Position numbers and translations under genes: made by a program. This document shows, piece by piece, positions 49,281 to 56,514 of a stretch of 64,000 bases of DNA. The DNA comes from Agapetus fuscipes (taxonomy: Eukaryota > Arthropoda > Insecta > Trichoptera > Glossosomatidae). The notes beneath the pieces are model-generated. The model ran no database searches and had not been told where the DNA came from. It saw nothing but the letters and a program-made list of their open reading frames with translations. Position 1 is the stretch's first letter; every line of letters starts with the position of its first letter. The stretch covers positions 19,087,659-19,151,658 of the forward strand of contig OX637341.1 in the NCBI GenBank assembly GCA_951799405.1, in the 5' to 3' direction.

Positions 49281-49285
49281 AGTAT

Positions 49286-49756
49286 TGTTATGTAAATATA
49301 AATATTGAAATAAGTATGGGTAGTTATAGTTATAAGAATCCTCAAAAGTATTAGTAGGTAAGATCGATAATTATGTATAAGTGTAGAATTCTCTAGGCTA
49401 AGTAGGTATTTGCTATAATTATAGGAATACTGTATTGCATTGGTAGGTAGGATTTTGGTTGTGTCTAGGTAGTACGTGAAACATCGAGAAGTAATAATTA
49501 CTCTGGAACCGTCTGGCGACTTTAGTTCTGGATCATACTGCTCTGAAGAGTATAAAGGTGCGAATGGCCTGCAGAGCGGGGCAGTATCATAGCGACTAAC
49601 AAACACATCGAAGCCATCTGATCAGTGAACCGAAACCAATGGAATAATCGAGAAAGTAGTGTGAAAATAAATTTTGTAACAGTGTAAAATAAATAACTAT
49701 TGAAGAAGACCTGTGTATTTTTAATTTGAAGACAATTGAACCCTAATTTCGTAACA
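49286..49756 (+). repeat. 5' LTR of the intact gypsy element (471 bp)
   Basis: Begins TGTTATGTAAATATAAATAT, ends CTAATTTCGTAACA. Contains TATAAAGG at 49551-49558 and AATAAATAA near 49688. Same ends as the solo LTR at 6060-6454. Confidence 0.95.
49551..49558 (+). promoter_or_regulatory. TATA box of the gypsy 5' LTR
   Basis: TATAAAGG in U3, followed about 30 bp later by a CAGTATCATAG initiator-like stretch. Confidence 0.6.
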
Positions 49757-49758
49757 AT

Positions 49759-49776
49759 TGGCGTCAGGTGCGGAAT
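49759..49776 (+). promoter_or_regulatory. tRNA primer-binding site
   Basis: TGGCGTCAGGTGCGGAAT starts two bases after the LTR, with the TGG expected opposite a tRNA CCA end. I cannot name the tRNA without a search. Confidence 0.7.
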
Positions 49777-50438
49777 TGTCAAGAAAAATTAAGATCTTCT
49801 GTCTAAAAATAAATAAAATAAATTAAATAGTGTTAAAATGAACTTTATTCAAATTGAACTTTGTGTGAACTGACTTTTGTGAAAACAAGTGTTTAAATAA
49901 ATTTTTGTTAAAAGAAAAGACGCAAAAGCAAGTTGCTTATAAATTCTGGAACATCATATGGAACATAATTCTGGACATAATTCTGGACATAACATAATGA
50001 CTATTTTACCGCATTGAGAAAGTCATCAAATTGGACCATAGTTTTTTTATTATTGTGTGTGATTAAAAAAATAAAAAAAATAAAAAAAAAATCTTGAAAA
50101 ATATTACAAAAGAACGTTCCAGATTCATCGAGAAAAAGTTTTTGAATAACTATCCTTTGTTTACAAGTGTGTGAATGTACATTAAGTACCTACCTGTGTG
50201 TTTGAAAGACTTGAGACGAAATAAATAATTATGTACTATCAGACATTATTATGTTAAAAATATTGGTGAATTAAAAATAAATATTAAAAGACAGTACCTA
50301 CCTACCAATCAGTGTAATCAGACAAATTATTATTTTTGCTAAAGTACGTATTCAAAATAACTTTATATATAAAACTCATAACTTGTATTAAATAAATTTG
50401 AAAATATTTTTGTTTTGACGTAAATTTTGAAAAAAAAA
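49777..50438 (+). other. Gypsy leader, untranslated
   Basis: About 660 bp, AT-rich, with several short ATG frames and no conserved protein. Confidence 0.7.
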
Positions 50439-51758
50439 ATGGCAACTAAAGTGAACGTCAAGGACCTCAAAGTCACTGAGCTTAAAAATGAGCTTCTGGA
50501 GAGGGACCTGGAGACCTCAGGAGGAAAGGCAGCCTTACAAGCACGCCTCATAGAGGCCTTGGAACAGTCAGGCGAAGACCCGGCATATTTTGTCATGGCG
50601 TCTGGAGGGGACCGCGCCCTTGAGGAGCTGAACATCAGCATCACAAAATCCATGAAGGAGGAGCTCACGGGAAACTTCACTGCCATGGAGGAGAAGATGG
50701 CTGACAACGCCAAGACCCTGAAGGAGGACCTGACCGGGCTGGAGGAGAAGATGACCACCAACCTGAAGGAAGTGGTGACCGACCTGAAGGTGGAAATGGC
50801 TGACAACGCCAGGAATCTGGAGGAAAAGGTGTCCCGAAATCTCACAACCCTGAAAGGAGAAATGGAAGAGAAGATGACAGCCCTGAAGGGGGAAATGGAG
50901 ACTCGTATATCAAGCCTGGAGGACCGTCTGCGTGCCGAGCTGGCTGACAAGTGCCAGATGGAGTCCACCAGAATATCCCCCAAAGACGGCCTTCACGACG
51001 AGACCGACCAGGGATGCTCAACTCCAACCAGGGTCACTAGAGGGGATGACGACCCTTCGCTGTCGAAGCACAACCTTCCGACCTTCGACGGGAAGACGTC
51101 GTGGGAGGAGTATTTGACCCTCTTTGAGACGGCTGCCATGATGGGAGCCTGGAGCCAGCAGAAGAAGGCTTCGGTTCTCAGCCTGTCGCTCCGAGGAGAC
51201 GCTCTCAGGGTTCTGCAGGCCATACCCCTGGACAACCGTGGTGACTTTGGGCAGCTGAAGCAGCGCTTGGATATGCGCTATGGCCACAAGTGCCTGGAGC
51301 AGCTGTACAAGTCGCAGCTGAACACAAGGGTGCAGAAGCCCAACGAGAGCCTCCAGGAGTTTGAAATGGACATCGCCCGCCTGGTACGAGACGCTTACCC
51401 GACAGCCTCCGACGACATCTGTGAGAGCTTGGCAGTGGACAAGTTCCTAAATGGATTGCGGGAATGGGAGACGCAACAAGCCGTAAAACTGGCCCATCCC
51501 AAGGCTTTGAACGAGGCGCTCAGCCAAGCTCTCGAGTTTGAGGCTGTCAAACAGTCCATCAGGGGCCACGCCAGGGTTCGTGCAGTCGAGGCAGAGGAGG
51601 TCAAGCTACCTACAACCGAGGAGCTAATTGAAAAAGTGCTGGAACGTCTGAGACCTCGAAGACGAGACCCACGCTGCTGGAACTGCGGACAGCTGGGCCA
51701 CCTTAGCACCAAGTGTCCCAAGCCTCAGAAACCCAGAAAACAGGCTGCGGAAAACTAG
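50439..51758 (+). CDS. gag: Gag polyprotein with N-terminal SAP-like motif
   Basis: Starts at the ATG at 50439 (MATKVNVKDL), after a run of A. Residues 5-40 (VKDLKVTELKNELLERDL ... GGKAALQARLIEAL) fit the helix-extended-loop-helix SAP motif, a DNA/chromatin-binding fold. A long charged, Glu/Lys-rich region with MEEKM and LKGEME repeats (about 60-165) looks like coiled coil. The capsid-like region follows (YLTLFETAAMMGAWSQQ, YKSQLNTRVQKPNESLQEF), as in retrotransposon Gag. Near residue 413 is one CCHC zinc knuckle, CWNCGQLGHLSTKC. Gag packages the element RNA and forms the particle. It ends with TAG at 51756-51758, overlapping pol. 439 residues; no damage seen. Confidence 0.93.
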   Translation: MATKVNVKDLKVTELKNELLERDLETSGGKAALQARLIEALEQSGEDPAYFVMASGGDRALEELNISITKSMKEELTGNFTAMEEKMADNAKTLKEDLTGLEEKMTTNLKEVVTDLKVEMADNARNLEEKVSRNLTTLKGEMEEKMTALKGEMETRISSLEDRLRAELADKCQMESTRISPKDGLHDETDQGCSTPTRVTRGDDDPSLSKHNLPTFDGKTSWEEYLTLFETAAMMGAWSQQKKASVLSLSLRGDALRVLQAIPLDNRGDFGQLKQRLDMRYGHKCLEQLYKSQLNTRVQKPNESLQEFEMDIARLVRDAYPTASDDICESLAVDKFLNGLREWETQQAVKLAHPKALNEALSQALEFEAVKQSIRGHARVRAVEAEEVKLPTTEELIEKVLERLRPRRRDPRCWNCGQLGHLSTKCPKPQKPRKQAAEN

Positions 51759-54700
51759 AAAGGGTTAATGGGAAGGGGCAACCGTTGACCCACGCTGGAG
51801 AGGCCCTGAAATCTGCTGCTACTGTCGCAACCGTGAGAGGAAAAGCCAGCAGCATTTTTATCAATGGCATAATAGATGGAGTAACTCGTGAACTACTGGT
51901 GGACACGGGAGCAACCAGGACAATTCTGAGACGCGACATAGTGGCACGAGGTAAGCAGATTGCACCAACAAAGTGGTCTCTGCACACCGCCACGGGAGAG
52001 TCAGCACAGGTGTATGGGGAGACGATTGCCACCTTCCAAATTGGCAGCACCACTTTTGATCATCGGACGTTGGTGGCCAACATTGAAGAAGACGTTATAT
52101 TGGGAATGGACATACTGGACAGATTTGGGTGCAGTTTAAATTTAAAGAAAGGGTCCATTAAAATTGGAAATGAAGAAGTCATCCTGCAAAGACGGAAAGA
52201 ACTGGCTGCACGTGTTATCCTAGCCAAGAATACCGAAGTGAAGGGGCGATCCGAGATGATAGTGAGTGCCCGCCTGGATTCCAGTAGTACAAATGACCAA
52301 ATCTGTATGATAGAACCGGAGAACATGGACAATGTTAACAAAGGAGTCATGGTGGCAAGAACAGTGATTCGCGCAAAGGAGACCATTCCTGTCAAGATCA
52401 TGAATGTGAACAGCTACCCAGTTAAAATGAATGAAGGTTTTGTTTTGGGCAGATGTGAGAGGATAACTTCCATTGTGCAACAGATGACAAACATGTCATG
52501 CGAAGGAAACAAATTGTCAACACAATTGGAAGCCCTGGTCCACGACGCTTCCCAAGGTCTAACCGAGGAAAACAAACGGAGAGTGAGGAGTTTGATCTGC
52601 CGCTACCAGAACATTTTCGAGGACTCTAATGGCCGTCTGGGAAGAACCAAGGTAGTGCGACATAGCATAGACACCGGAGAAGCGAGACCAATAAAACAGG
52701 CTCCAAGAAGACTACCCTTTGCAAAGCGGGAAGAAGCTGACAAGATCATCAAAGACATGAGCAAGGATGGCATCATAGAACCATCAAGTAGCCCTTGGAC
52801 ATCCCCGGTGGTACTGGTGAAAAAGAAGGATGGTACCACGAGATTTTGTGTGGACTACAGACTGCTCAACGATGTTACGAAAAAGGATAGTTACCCTCTG
52901 CCAAGGATTGACGACACCTTGGACACATTGGCAGGATGCACCATTTTTTCCACATTGGACCTGAAAAGTGGCTACTGGCAAGTTGAATTGGATGCCAAAG
53001 ATAAGGAGAAAACTGCATTCTCGACTGGATCTGGACTTTGGCAGTTCACCGTGATGCCATTTGGCTTATGCAATGCCCCCGCCACGTTTGAAAGGCTGAT
53101 GGAGAATGTGCTGCGAGGACTGTCATGGGAAACCTGCCTGGTATACTTGGATGACATAATCATCCTGGGAAAGGACTTCAACCATCAGTTGAGAAATCTG
53201 GAGCAAGTTTTCGGGCGACTACAAGACGCTGGACTGAAGCTCAACCCGAAAAAGTGTAACCTGTTCAAGAAACAAGTAAATTACCTGGGACACATAGTTT
53301 CTCAACGTGGAGTTGAAGTTGACCCTGCCAAAATCAAGGCAGTAAGAGACTGGCCCGTGCTGAAGGACAAACATGAAACTAGGAGTTTCCTGGGGCTGTG
53401 CACTTATTACAGGAGGTTTGTGCCAAGATTTGCGGACATTGCAAAACCGCTCACCAAGCTTACGGAAGAAAACACTCGCTTCCATTGGAGTGATTCCTGC
53501 GCACAAGCATTTGAAGAGCTTAAGGGAAGATTAACAAGTGCCCCCATCTTGAGCTACCCACGAAAAGATGGAAAGTTCATCCTGGATACCGACGCTAGTA
53601 ATGTGGGGATAGGAGGCGTCCTTTCCCAAATACAGGATGGGCATGAGACTGTTCTGGGTTACTTCAGTAAAGTGCTTTCCAAGCCAGAACGAAATTATTG
53701 CGTGACCAGACGAGAGCTTCTTGCCGTGATAAAATCAGTGGAACACTTCCGCAAATACTTGTACGGGAGAAAATTCACACTACGGACTGATCATGCTGCA
53801 CTGGTTTGGCTTCTGAAATTCAAAAACCCAGAAGGGCAAGTGGCTAGATGGATTGAAAGGCTCCAGGAGTATGATTATGACTCCGAACATAGACCTGGTA
53901 CGCTTCATCGAAATGCGGATGCATTATCCAGACGACCATGCGCCAGTGACTGCAAACATTGCAGCAAGATGGAGGACAAGGTAGCAATTGTCCAAAGGAC
54001 GACCACCGAAGATGAGGACTGGCAAGATGAAAAATTGGCGCAAGACCAACTGAATGATCCGGACTTGAAGTATGTGATGGAATGGGCGCGAGAAGGAGAA
54101 AGGCCAACCTGGGAAAAACTCGCCCCCTTATCACCAACTGTCAAGGCTTATTGGGCTCAATGGGGATCCATAGTGATAGAAGGAGGGTTTCTGAAACGAA
54201 AGATCGAGAAGGAAGACGGCACACTTAGAAGAAAGCAAACCCTCGTTCCGAGGAGCCGAGTACCGGAAATCCTTGGACTACTGCATGGAGGAACTTCTGG
54301 AGGACATCTAGGCGTTAAGAAGACGCTGGAGAAAGTGAAAGAGCGATTTTACTGGATCAACTGCAGCGAAGACGTCAAAGATTGGTGTCGAAAATGTGTA
54401 ACCTGTGCAACGGCCAATGGACCGCAAAGGAAAAGGCGAGCACCAATGCGTCAGTACAATGTTGGCAGCCCCTTTGAAAGAATTGCCATCGACATAGCTG
54501 GCCCATTTCCTACAACTGAGAAGGGTAACAAGTACATCATGGTGGTGATGGATTACTTCAGCAAGTGGGTGGAAGCTTACTCAATCCTTAACCAAGAGGC
54601 CGTAACCGTGACTGAAGTTCTAGTTACCGAATTTATCAGCAGGTTTGGCGTACCCCTGGAATTACATTCTGATCAGGGAAGGAACTTTGAAGCTGCTATC

Positions 54701-55975
54701 TTCCAGCAAATGTGTGAGCGGCTAGGGATCTACAAGACCAGGACCACTGCGCTACATCCACAGTCTGATGGAATGGTGGAAAGGATGAACCGTACCGTGG
54801 GGAGGTACTTAGCCAAAGTAGTGTCCAGCCATCAGCGGGACTGGGACCGACATCTGCCTTTGTTCTTATTGGCTTACCGGTCGGCTGTTCAGGAAACGAC
54901 GAAGAAGACTCCCAGCAGCATACTGTTTGGGCGAGAAATGCGACTTCCTTGTGATCTCACATTTGGCTGCAAACCAGGTGAAGACCTAGCCGGAGAAGAC
55001 TATGTGACAGACCTTCGCAGGAGGCTGGATGACATCCATGATCAGGTCCGCATGAACATCGGGGAAGCCAGCGATCAAATGAAGGAGCGCTATGACACCA
55101 GAGCTGACAGCATGGGGTACAAAGCTGGTGACTGGGTGTGGCTTTTTGACCCCAAGAGGCGCCAAGGATACTGTCCGAAACTTCAGCGTTCCTGGGACGG
55201 GCCGTACGAGATCTTGGAGCGCATCAACGATGTGGTCTACCGCATAAAAAAGAGACCAAACGGAAAACCAAGGGTCGTGCACTACAATCGCCTCTCACCA
55301 TACCTAGGCGATAATGATGACCAACCAGCCCAAAAAGTACGACAGTGCGTCGCATCCAAAAGATCACCAGCCTTTGAGACGTTTTGGGAGAACGCGAAGG
55401 CAGGGCAGAAGTTTCGCCATGGAGTGACCACAGAAGTCCACAAGGACTTATTTGAGGTCACTAGGGACCACACACTGGCATGCAGTGTACCGGAAGATCT
55501 AGATATGTCTAGAGGAATTGCACGGGTCTTCCGATACAAATTCGGAGAACCGCAACCCTCGAGCAGCCCGCAAGGAAGAGCTCTGAGACTACCGAAGGGG
55601 CGTCAACAAGCATACTGCCTGGTTGTCCCGGATTCCAGCAACCTGGAAGAGGACTACAAGGCATTGTGGGACGGCCTTGTTGAGCTGCGTGACTACATGT
55701 TGGAGGATCAGCAGGCGCGTCTGGCAATACCGAAGATGGGTGGCGGCCGCGCTAATCGAGACTGGCGGATAATCCGGAGTATGATTGAAGCAGTGTTCTC
55801 GGGAGTCGGCATCAGCGTCATGGTGTGCTGCGAGCAAGCGCAGCCGAGAGCCAGTGGGGAGAAATCCGTGGACTGCCACTTCTTCCTGACCACAGGGTGT
55901 CGACGTGGATCAGCATGCCCCTACCTACACAGAGTCAAGACTGTTCCGGGACGAAACAGTCTAGGTGGGGGGTAG
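51713..55975 (+). CDS. pol: Pol polyprotein: protease, RT, RNase H, integrase, macrodomain, CCCH finger
   Basis: The open frame overlaps the 3' end of gag by 46 bp and lies in the -1 frame. It has no convincing ATG near its start, so expression by -1 frameshifting as Gag-Pol is likely. Numbering from 51713: protease LLVDTGATRTIL (active site near 64-66); RT with CVDYRLLN and YLDD (478-481); RNase H with LDTDAS (Asp 625); integrase zinc-binding LLHGGTSGGHLG and CRKC (His 858 onward), catalytic Asp 927, Asp 987 and Glu 1023 (35 residues apart), and GPY/F module (WDGPYEILERI near 1163). Then a macrodomain (about 1238-1375) and CCCH finger (1388-1406). The stop TAG (55973-55975) abuts the 3' LTR. 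Usual gypsy Pol ends soon after GPY/F; here about 230 residues follow. All catalytic residues of the mobilisation enzymes are present, so the element looks competent. Confidence 0.95.
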   Translation: MSQASETQKTGCGKLERVNGKGQPLTHAGEALKSAATVATVRGKASSIFINGIIDGVTRELLVDTGATRTILRRDIVARGKQIAPTKWSLHTATGESAQVYGETIATFQIGSTTFDHRTLVANIEEDVILGMDILDRFGCSLNLKKGSIKIGNEEVILQRRKELAARVILAKNTEVKGRSEMIVSARLDSSSTNDQICMIEPENMDNVNKGVMVARTVIRAKETIPVKIMNVNSYPVKMNEGFVLGRCERITSIVQQMTNMSCEGNKLSTQLEALVHDASQGLTEENKRRVRSLICRYQNIFEDSNGRLGRTKVVRHSIDTGEARPIKQAPRRLPFAKREEADKIIKDMSKDGIIEPSSSPWTSPVVLVKKKDGTTRFCVDYRLLNDVTKKDSYPLPRIDDTLDTLAGCTIFSTLDLKSGYWQVELDAKDKEKTAFSTGSGLWQFTVMPFGLCNAPATFERLMENVLRGLSWETCLVYLDDIIILGKDFNHQLRNLEQVFGRLQDAGLKLNPKKCNLFKKQVNYLGHIVSQRGVEVDPAKIKAVRDWPVLKDKHETRSFLGLCTYYRRFVPRFADIAKPLTKLTEENTRFHWSDSCAQAFEELKGRLTSAPILSYPRKDGKFILDTDASNVGIGGVLSQIQDGHETVLGYFSKVLSKPERNYCVTRRELLAVIKSVEHFRKYLYGRKFTLRTDHAALVWLLKFKNPEGQVARWIERLQEYDYDSEHRPGTLHRNADALSRRPCASDCKHCSKMEDKVAIVQRTTTEDEDWQDEKLAQDQLNDPDLKYVMEWAREGERPTWEKLAPLSPTVKAYWAQWGSIVIEGGFLKRKIEKEDGTLRRKQTLVPRSRVPEILGLLHGGTSGGHLGVKKTLEKVKERFYWINCSEDVKDWCRKCVTCATANGPQRKRRAPMRQYNVGSPFERIAIDIAGPFPTTEKGNKYIMVVMDYFSKWVEAYSILNQEAVTVTEVLVTEFISRFGVPLELHSDQGRNFEAAIFQQMCERLGIYKTRTTALHPQSDGMVERMNRTVGRYLAKVVSSHQRDWDRHLPLFLLAYRSAVQETTKKTPSSILFGREMRLPCDLTFGCKPGEDLAGEDYVTDLRRRLDDIHDQVRMNIGEASDQMKERYDTRADSMGYKAGDWVWLFDPKRRQGYCPKLQRSWDGPYEILERINDVVYRIKKRPNGKPRVVHYNRLSPYLGDNDDQPAQKVRQCVASKRSPAFETFWENAKAGQKFRHGVTTEVHKDLFEVTRDHTLACSVPEDLDMSRGIARVFRYKFGEPQPSSSPQGRALRLPKGRQQAYCLVVPDSSNLEEDYKALWDGLVELRDYMLEDQQARLAIPKMGGGRANRDWRIIRSMIEAVFSGVGISVMVCCEQAQPRASGEKSVDCHFFLTTGCRRGSACPYLHRVKTVPGRNSLGGG
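51741..51758 (+). promoter_or_regulatory. Presumed gag-pol frameshift region
   Basis: The last gag codons are CAG GCT GCG GAA AAC TAG. GGAAAAC at 51749-51755 is the nearest thing to a slippery heptamer but is not of the XXXYYYZ form. No obvious pseudoknot was identified by eye. The mechanism remains open. Confidence 0.35.
55424..55840 (+). other. Macrodomain (TARG1/ALC1-like) encoded in Pol
   Basis: Pol residues about 1238-1375. HKDLFEVTRDHTLACSVPED (1243 on), then MSRGIARVFRYKFG, align without gaps, from memory, to the first ADP-ribose-binding segment of TARG1/OARD1-type macrodomains ('GDLF', 'LAHC-SED-RMGAGIA-LFK-KFG'). LAIPKMGGGRANRDW (1337-1351) aligns to the phosphate-binding 'MPRIGCGLDxxxW' loop, and IRSMIEAVFSGVGISVMVC to the last helix and strand. 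Where TARG1 has its catalytic Lys and Asp, this protein has Pro1306 and Ala1347. So binding of ADP-ribose is plausible, and TARG1-type hydrolysis unlikely. The domain is in frame with integrase and shows no damage. Function in the element is unknown. Confidence 0.8.
55874..55930 (+). other. CCCH zinc finger at the Pol C-terminus
   Basis: CHFFLTTGCRRGSACPYLH gives Cys1388-X7-Cys1396-X5-Cys1402-X3-His1406, close to the C-X7/8-C-X5-C-X3-H zinc fingers of RNA-binding proteins. 'CxFF..G.CRRGxxCPYxH' is the usual wording of this family. Only about 14 residues follow, up to the stop codon. Confidence 0.8.
55963..55975 (+). promoter_or_regulatory. Polypurine tract
   Basis: AGGTGGGGGGTAG lies directly before the 3' LTR, as expected for the plus-strand primer. 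It doubles as the last codons and stop of pol. Confidence 0.7.
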
Positions 55976-56446
55976 TGTTATGTAAATATAAATATTGAAA
56001 TAAGTATGGGTAGTTATAGTTATAAGAATCCTCAAAAGTATTGGTAGGTAAGATCGATAATTATGTATAAGTGTAGAATTCTCTAGGCTAAGTAGGTATT
56101 TGCTATAATTATAGGAATACTGTATTGCATTGGTAGGTAGGATTTTGGTTGTGTCTAGGTAGTACGTGAAACATCGAGAAGTAATAATTACTCTGGAACC
56201 GTCTGGCGACTTTAGTTCTGGATCATACTGCTCTGAAGAGTATAAAGGTGCGAATGGCCTGCAGAGCGGGGCAGTATCATAGCGACTAACAAACACATCG
56301 AAGCCATCTGATCAGTGAACCGAAACCAATGGAATAATCGAGAAAGTAGTGTGAAAATAAATTTTGTAACAGTGTAAAATAAATAACTATTGAAGAAGAC
56401 CTGTGTATTTTTAATTTGAAGACAATTGAACCCTAATTTCGTAACA
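55976..56446 (+). repeat. 3' LTR of the intact gypsy element (471 bp)
   Basis: Same length as the 5' LTR with one difference (56043 G versus 49353 A). Confidence 0.95.
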
Positions 56447-56514
56447 GTATGTTATAAATTGCGTCTCAATCATTTTTAGAATCAGCCATTTTCAAAAGAA
56501 ATAAAATTAAAACA

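Follow-up and report, generated by a model that had tools for sequence, protein, structure and literature searches.

The locus described here raises the question of why the Pol protein of an insect retrotransposon should continue past its integrase into a domain resembling a cellular eraser of ADP-ribose. It lies in a 64,000-nucleotide stretch of the Agapetus fuscipes genome (GenBank assembly GCA_951799405.1, contig OX637341.1, positions 19,087,659 to 19,151,658), referred to below as the window, which contains a complete Ty3/Gypsy element with long terminal repeats (LTRs), a target duplication, Gag, and a Pol ordered protease, reverse transcriptase (RT), RNase H (RH) and integrase (IN). The tail of this Pol is a TARG1-class macrodomain followed by a CCCH zinc finger, fused to the C-terminus of the integrase, and the macrodomain is an accessory domain of a Gypsy Pol. 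TARG1 (also OARD1 or C6orf130) is an enzyme that erases ADP-ribose marks in cells, and ADP-ribosylation is best known for its part in DNA repair and in defence against RNA viruses; the finding, if true, would tie retrotransposon biology to this modification. No Gypsy element with a macrodomain was recognised in the open-licence PMC literature (titles, abstract openings and passages), subscription literature being mostly outside this scope.

Pol is an intact single open reading frame (ORF; 51713..55975, + strand, as are all features given here) that runs for 224 residues beyond the integrase p58 match, which ends at residue 1196. An earlier note on this DNA had read a TARG1-like macrodomain into the extension, and its motifs are in place: DLF at 1245-1247, SRGIARVFRYKFG at 1266-1278 and AIPKMGGG at 1338-1345. 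A linker (residues 1197-1238; 55301..55426), fast evolving in comparison with relatives and delimited in the predicted model, leads into the macrodomain (residues 1239-1373; 55427..55831), which phmmer, alignment and predicted fold all define. Searched against the PDB, the macrodomain region matched five human TARG1/C6orf130 sequences (E-values 7.5e-11 to 9.2e-11). The predicted fold is that of a macrodomain and nearest to TARG1, entries of which filled the six top VIA rows and the first eight Foldseek rows; viral macrodomains, the alphavirus domains among them, share the macro fold and appear in these fold lists with scores below those of TARG1. Loop 1 (SRGIA) and the glycine-rich loop 2 are retained, as is the Asp of the DLF motif, which in TARG1 has a role on the adenine side. 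The window domain differs from TARG1 in its fusion to an integrase and a CCCH finger, and in changes at the positions of Lys84, Asp125 and His32. A Pfam search at E<=10 turned up no Macro family in the window protein, which could be taken to favour chance resemblance or an assembly chimera. We regard that explanation as negligible and rejected it, since phmmer homology, predicted fold, phylogeny and many genomic copies concur.

The finger (55874..55930) has the ligands C1388, C1396, C1402 and H1406 in the spacing C-X7/8-C-X5-C-X3-H, and is seen in the sequence and in phmmer matches. Its Pfam score falls on either side of the cut-off of 20.5 bits: zf-CCCH scored 21.3 bits in a 251-residue piece and 19.5 bits in a 391-residue piece. 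Against the PDB, phmmer gave weak matches for the finger, to CPSF30 (0.0035 and weaker) and also to RBM22. Both are RNA-binding proteins. Among relatives with all four ligand columns filled, 101 of 107 keep the ligands; in the other 39 of the 146 rows one or more finger columns are empty, these being fragments or, like P0086, fingerless. This retention and the CPSF30 and RBM22 matches, together with the changed pocket residues, would fit a module reused for RNA or DNA binding or for assembly, serving to package the genome or to multimerise the integrase and having no function in ADP-ribose biology. We judge this unlikely, given that the window domain still has loop 1 and a glycine-rich loop 2 and that the catalytic dyad of TARG1 survives in most relatives.

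Protein searches for relatives gave 2, 98 and 62 matches, and 146 relatives remained once 9 cellular proteins, and 5 others whose macrodomain lies at another place, had been set aside. Their source names include Aromia, Callosobruchus, Acanthoscelides, Exocentrus, Molorchus, Gonioctena, Brassicogethes, Pyrocoelia and Aquatica, all of them beetles; contamination probably accounts for records labelled Erysiphe and Klebsiella, and Macrosteles records named "OARD1-like" cluster with element tails in the tree. Two viral-contig scans found no relative. The dyad, Lys84 and Asp125, is retained in 126 of the 135 relatives with both columns aligned (11 of the 146 rows, in which the two columns were not both filled, were set aside), although many of the 146 are near-copies from one species and hence not independent. 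From this retention the ancestral module was probably a hydrolase. The exceptions comprise P0112, which shares 99% identity with the window, P0120, P0114, P0117, P0124 and four poor or partial rows.

In the window, Lys84 is replaced by P1306 and Asp125 by A1347, as the earlier note had seen. The same genome holds three dyad-less families, in which the dyad and the His32 equivalent are absent from the copies read: family A, to which the window element belongs; family B, with Arg and Ala at the dyad positions in 30 of 30 tails (2 of the 30 with a stop); and family C, with two loci whose tail is 70% identical to that of the window. Families A and C have Pro at the Lys84 position. With P0120 the three form a single clade (support 100/99). 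P0120 itself is a 356-residue frame on a 1442-base contig in which protease is joined directly to the macro-CCCH tail, without RT to integrase; a deletion derivative and a spliced transcript are candidate readings.

That loss of the dyad makes the domain a binder rather than a hydrolase, as had also been proposed, does not follow from the missing residues alone. SCO6735 and DarG are bacterial ALC1-like, TARG1-class hydrolases in which the dyad is missing wholly or in part (PMC9411070, PMC7050489). SCO6735, without both residues, cleaves thymidine-linked ADP-ribose and requires a Gln at the Lys84 position (PMC9411070), where family B has Arg. The window domain could likewise still be an ADP-ribosyl hydrolase by other chemistry, acting on the element's own ADP-ribosylated nucleic acid or protein. 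We consider this quite improbable, as families A and C carry Pro instead of that Gln, the His32 and Asp125 positions are altered too, and no candidate catalytic residue was identified in the window domain. DarG, unlike the window domain, keeps the Lys and acts as an antitoxin (same sources).

The element is young and intact, in agreement with the earlier note: its 5' LTR (471 bp, TG...CA; 49286..49756) differs from the 3' LTR (55976..56446) by one mismatch in 471, and a 4-bp GTAT target duplication flanks both (49282-49285 and 56447-56450). A first scan of the 618-Mb host genome gave 1412 candidates. All 150 that were scored round to 100% identity and are free of internal stops, and about 122 of them, counted by eye, lie in open frames of at least 1400 residues. 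Such a young, high-copy family provides many natural insertions for asking whether the macrodomain influences integration sites.

A rival reading makes the domain a neutral passenger, drifting since dyad loss and open only because it lies upstream of the polypurine tract. The macrodomain and linker do evolve fast, and private changes among 19 family A copies (6 nonsynonymous, 6 synonymous) show no clear constraint at this young scale; these copies came from 20 loci that were biased, having been chosen by protein-score rank, and from which L090 was left out, since it showed 480 differences and is either out of register or a different sequence. All 19 carry the change K1216E relative to the window, so the odd residue belongs to the window copy. 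The earlier note had thought recent selection on the module likely, and we found purifying selection in the deeper comparison of families A and C, using the Nei-Gojobori method with bootstrap intervals. Over 134 codons of the macrodomain dN/dS was 0.187 (bootstrap 0.098-0.312), and over 380 codons of the integrase piece it was 0.050. Without a recombined 3' end, A-C values were 0.153-0.187 with locus L052 and 0.142-0.176 with L053, and every A-C bootstrap interval lay below 1. The A-B and C-B values of 0.230 and 0.261 for the macrodomain come with near-saturated dS, and upstream comparisons of L054 and L055 were dropped (23-28% identity, apparently out of frame). An A-C dN/dS of 0.14-0.19 indicates that the domain stayed under purifying selection after dyad loss, less strictly than the integrase. 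With the loop and finger also common to A, B and C, neutral decay is disfavoured, and we hold it to be very improbable.

The recombined end is itself visible in the comparison of the window with L052. Across 55760-55975, from about codon 1350 to the stop, synonymous divergence drops from about 1 or more to 0.1-0.2, and the two LTRs (about 160 bases compared) match over only the first 12 or so bases. Judging by this pattern of divergence, families A and C have apparently exchanged the CCCH end through recombination or a template switch.

Taken together, an ancestral dyad-bearing module that removed ADP-ribose, followed by a non-hydrolysing reader in the window lineage that tethers or shields the integration complex at ADP-ribosylated sites, is the account we tentatively prefer, with a chance slightly short of even. 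The ancestral module would have acted on the element itself, clearing ADP-ribose from its integrase, its capsid or its nucleic-acid ends and so countering host ADP-ribosyltransferases; known TARG1 substrates are Asp/Glu-linked ADP-ribose and ADP-ribose at nucleic-acid ends (PMC7050489). A single dyad loss in the ancestor of the A/B/C/P0120 clade would then have left a non-hydrolysing reader able to bind chromatin proteins or nucleic acid when these are ADP-ribosylated, with the CCCH finger perhaps gripping RNA, and the integration complex would thereby be tethered to, or shielded at, ADP-ribosylated sites. On the integrase complex, the window-lineage module has most likely come to serve as a reader or as a shield.

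Several observations weigh against this account of a reader. The TARG1 His32 position is altered in the window as well, and the window model lies 2.3-2.6 Å from TARG1 crystal structures, compared with 1.0-1.4 Å for the dyad-intact relative P0104; for these reasons the pocket may no longer accept ADP-ribose, and it may be dead. Macrodomain dN/dS is 3-4 times the integrase value, and in eight relatives with a full RT, identity to the window is 74-81% for RT and 38-46% for the macrodomain, a pattern also compatible with relaxed constraint or with a new role. The dyad is partly missing in a few other relatives (R/D, R/G and K/S variants in P0114, P0117 and P0124). The activity of SCO6735 means that a missing dyad is no proof of inactivity, and the integrase position alone is no proof of integration targeting.

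Chromoviruses, which are also Ty3/Gypsy elements, carry a chromodomain at the integrase C-terminus. The window element likewise has an accessory domain there, but it is a macrodomain with a CCCH finger, and Pfam searches of C-terminal Pol pieces found no chromodomain family at E<=10. According to PMC4977317, which cites Basta et al. 2009, fish epsilon-like endogenous retroviruses have macro domains too, described as extra ORFs of these vertebrate viruses.

Macrodomains appear at more than one position in Gypsy elements. In another Gypsy lineage of the same genome (L068, L069, L070 and L074) a TARG1-like macrodomain with its dyad intact follows RNase H and precedes integrase, with a frame change between macro and integrase in L074. 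The RT of this lineage, contained in three of the four stretches, shares 42-47% identity with that of the window. The database proteins P0097 and P0099 share this placement, whereas in P0096 and P0100 the macrodomain precedes the protease. The macrodomain tree (which includes P0139, a cellular protein) left out 14 named rows, rows shorter than 118 residues, and rows at least 90% identical to one kept. A single capture, with all retroelement macrodomains in one clade, was disfavoured (approximately unbiased (AU) test, p 0.022), with the caveats that the four RH-macro-IN rows form a long branch of odd composition and that the group was named after the tree was first seen. The TARG1 matches and the tree support the homology to a cellular domain proposed in the earlier note; the Gypsy tail module may derive from a host. 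A broader scheme, in which Gypsy elements repeatedly captured a host ADP-ribose eraser as counter-defence and one lineage turned it into an integrase reader steering integration, as a counterpart of the chromodomain, seems to us somewhat unlikely as a whole. One genome nevertheless offers a natural series, from a cellular TARG1-like gene with the dyad (apparently of at least two exons) through a dyad-intact element to dyad-less elements, which allows direct tests of eraser-to-reader conversion and counter-defence. An exon of this cellular gene occurs twice on contig C31 and once on C52 (L058, L059, L060, L076 and L077), possibly as duplications or unresolved haplotypes.

Elsewhere in the element, a putative primer binding site (TGG..., placed by sequence without a tRNA match) lies just 3' of the 5' LTR at 49759..49773. 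Gag (50427..51758) contains SAP (Pfam E-value 3.7e-08), Retrotrans_gag (1.8e-05) and a CCHC knuckle (zf-CCHC, 1.6e-05), and a putative coiled coil suggested by a below-cut-off apolipoprotein-type match. By its coordinates Pol is in the -1 frame relative to Gag, with an overlap at 51707-51758, and GGAAAAC, which adjoins the stop codon of Gag, is a candidate slip site; RNA folding at the overlap gave no significant structure (z 0.21). Within Pol, RT occupies residues 369-529 (52817..53299; RVT_1 1.2e-26 in one piece, running into the next) and the integrase residues 845-1196 (54245..55300; H2C2, rve core and p58/SH3-like C-terminal module, 2.1e-18, 1e-14 and 7.6e-13). The Pol tail is coded through a putative polypurine tract (55963..55975), which encodes the last residues and the TAG stop; as that stop abuts the 3' LTR, there is no space for an env frame. 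The SAP domain stands at the Gag N-terminus (50457-50564), and many Aromia relatives have it too.

TARG1-like macrodomains were also encountered in other proteins. P0098 is a 2180-residue RNA-virus polyprotein (methyltransferase, helicase and RdRP matches) with a dyad-intact copy. P0087 and P0090-P0095 are leaf beetle or weevil cellular proteins of 816-1296 residues, in which the macrodomain sits towards the C-terminal end of a long low-complexity region.
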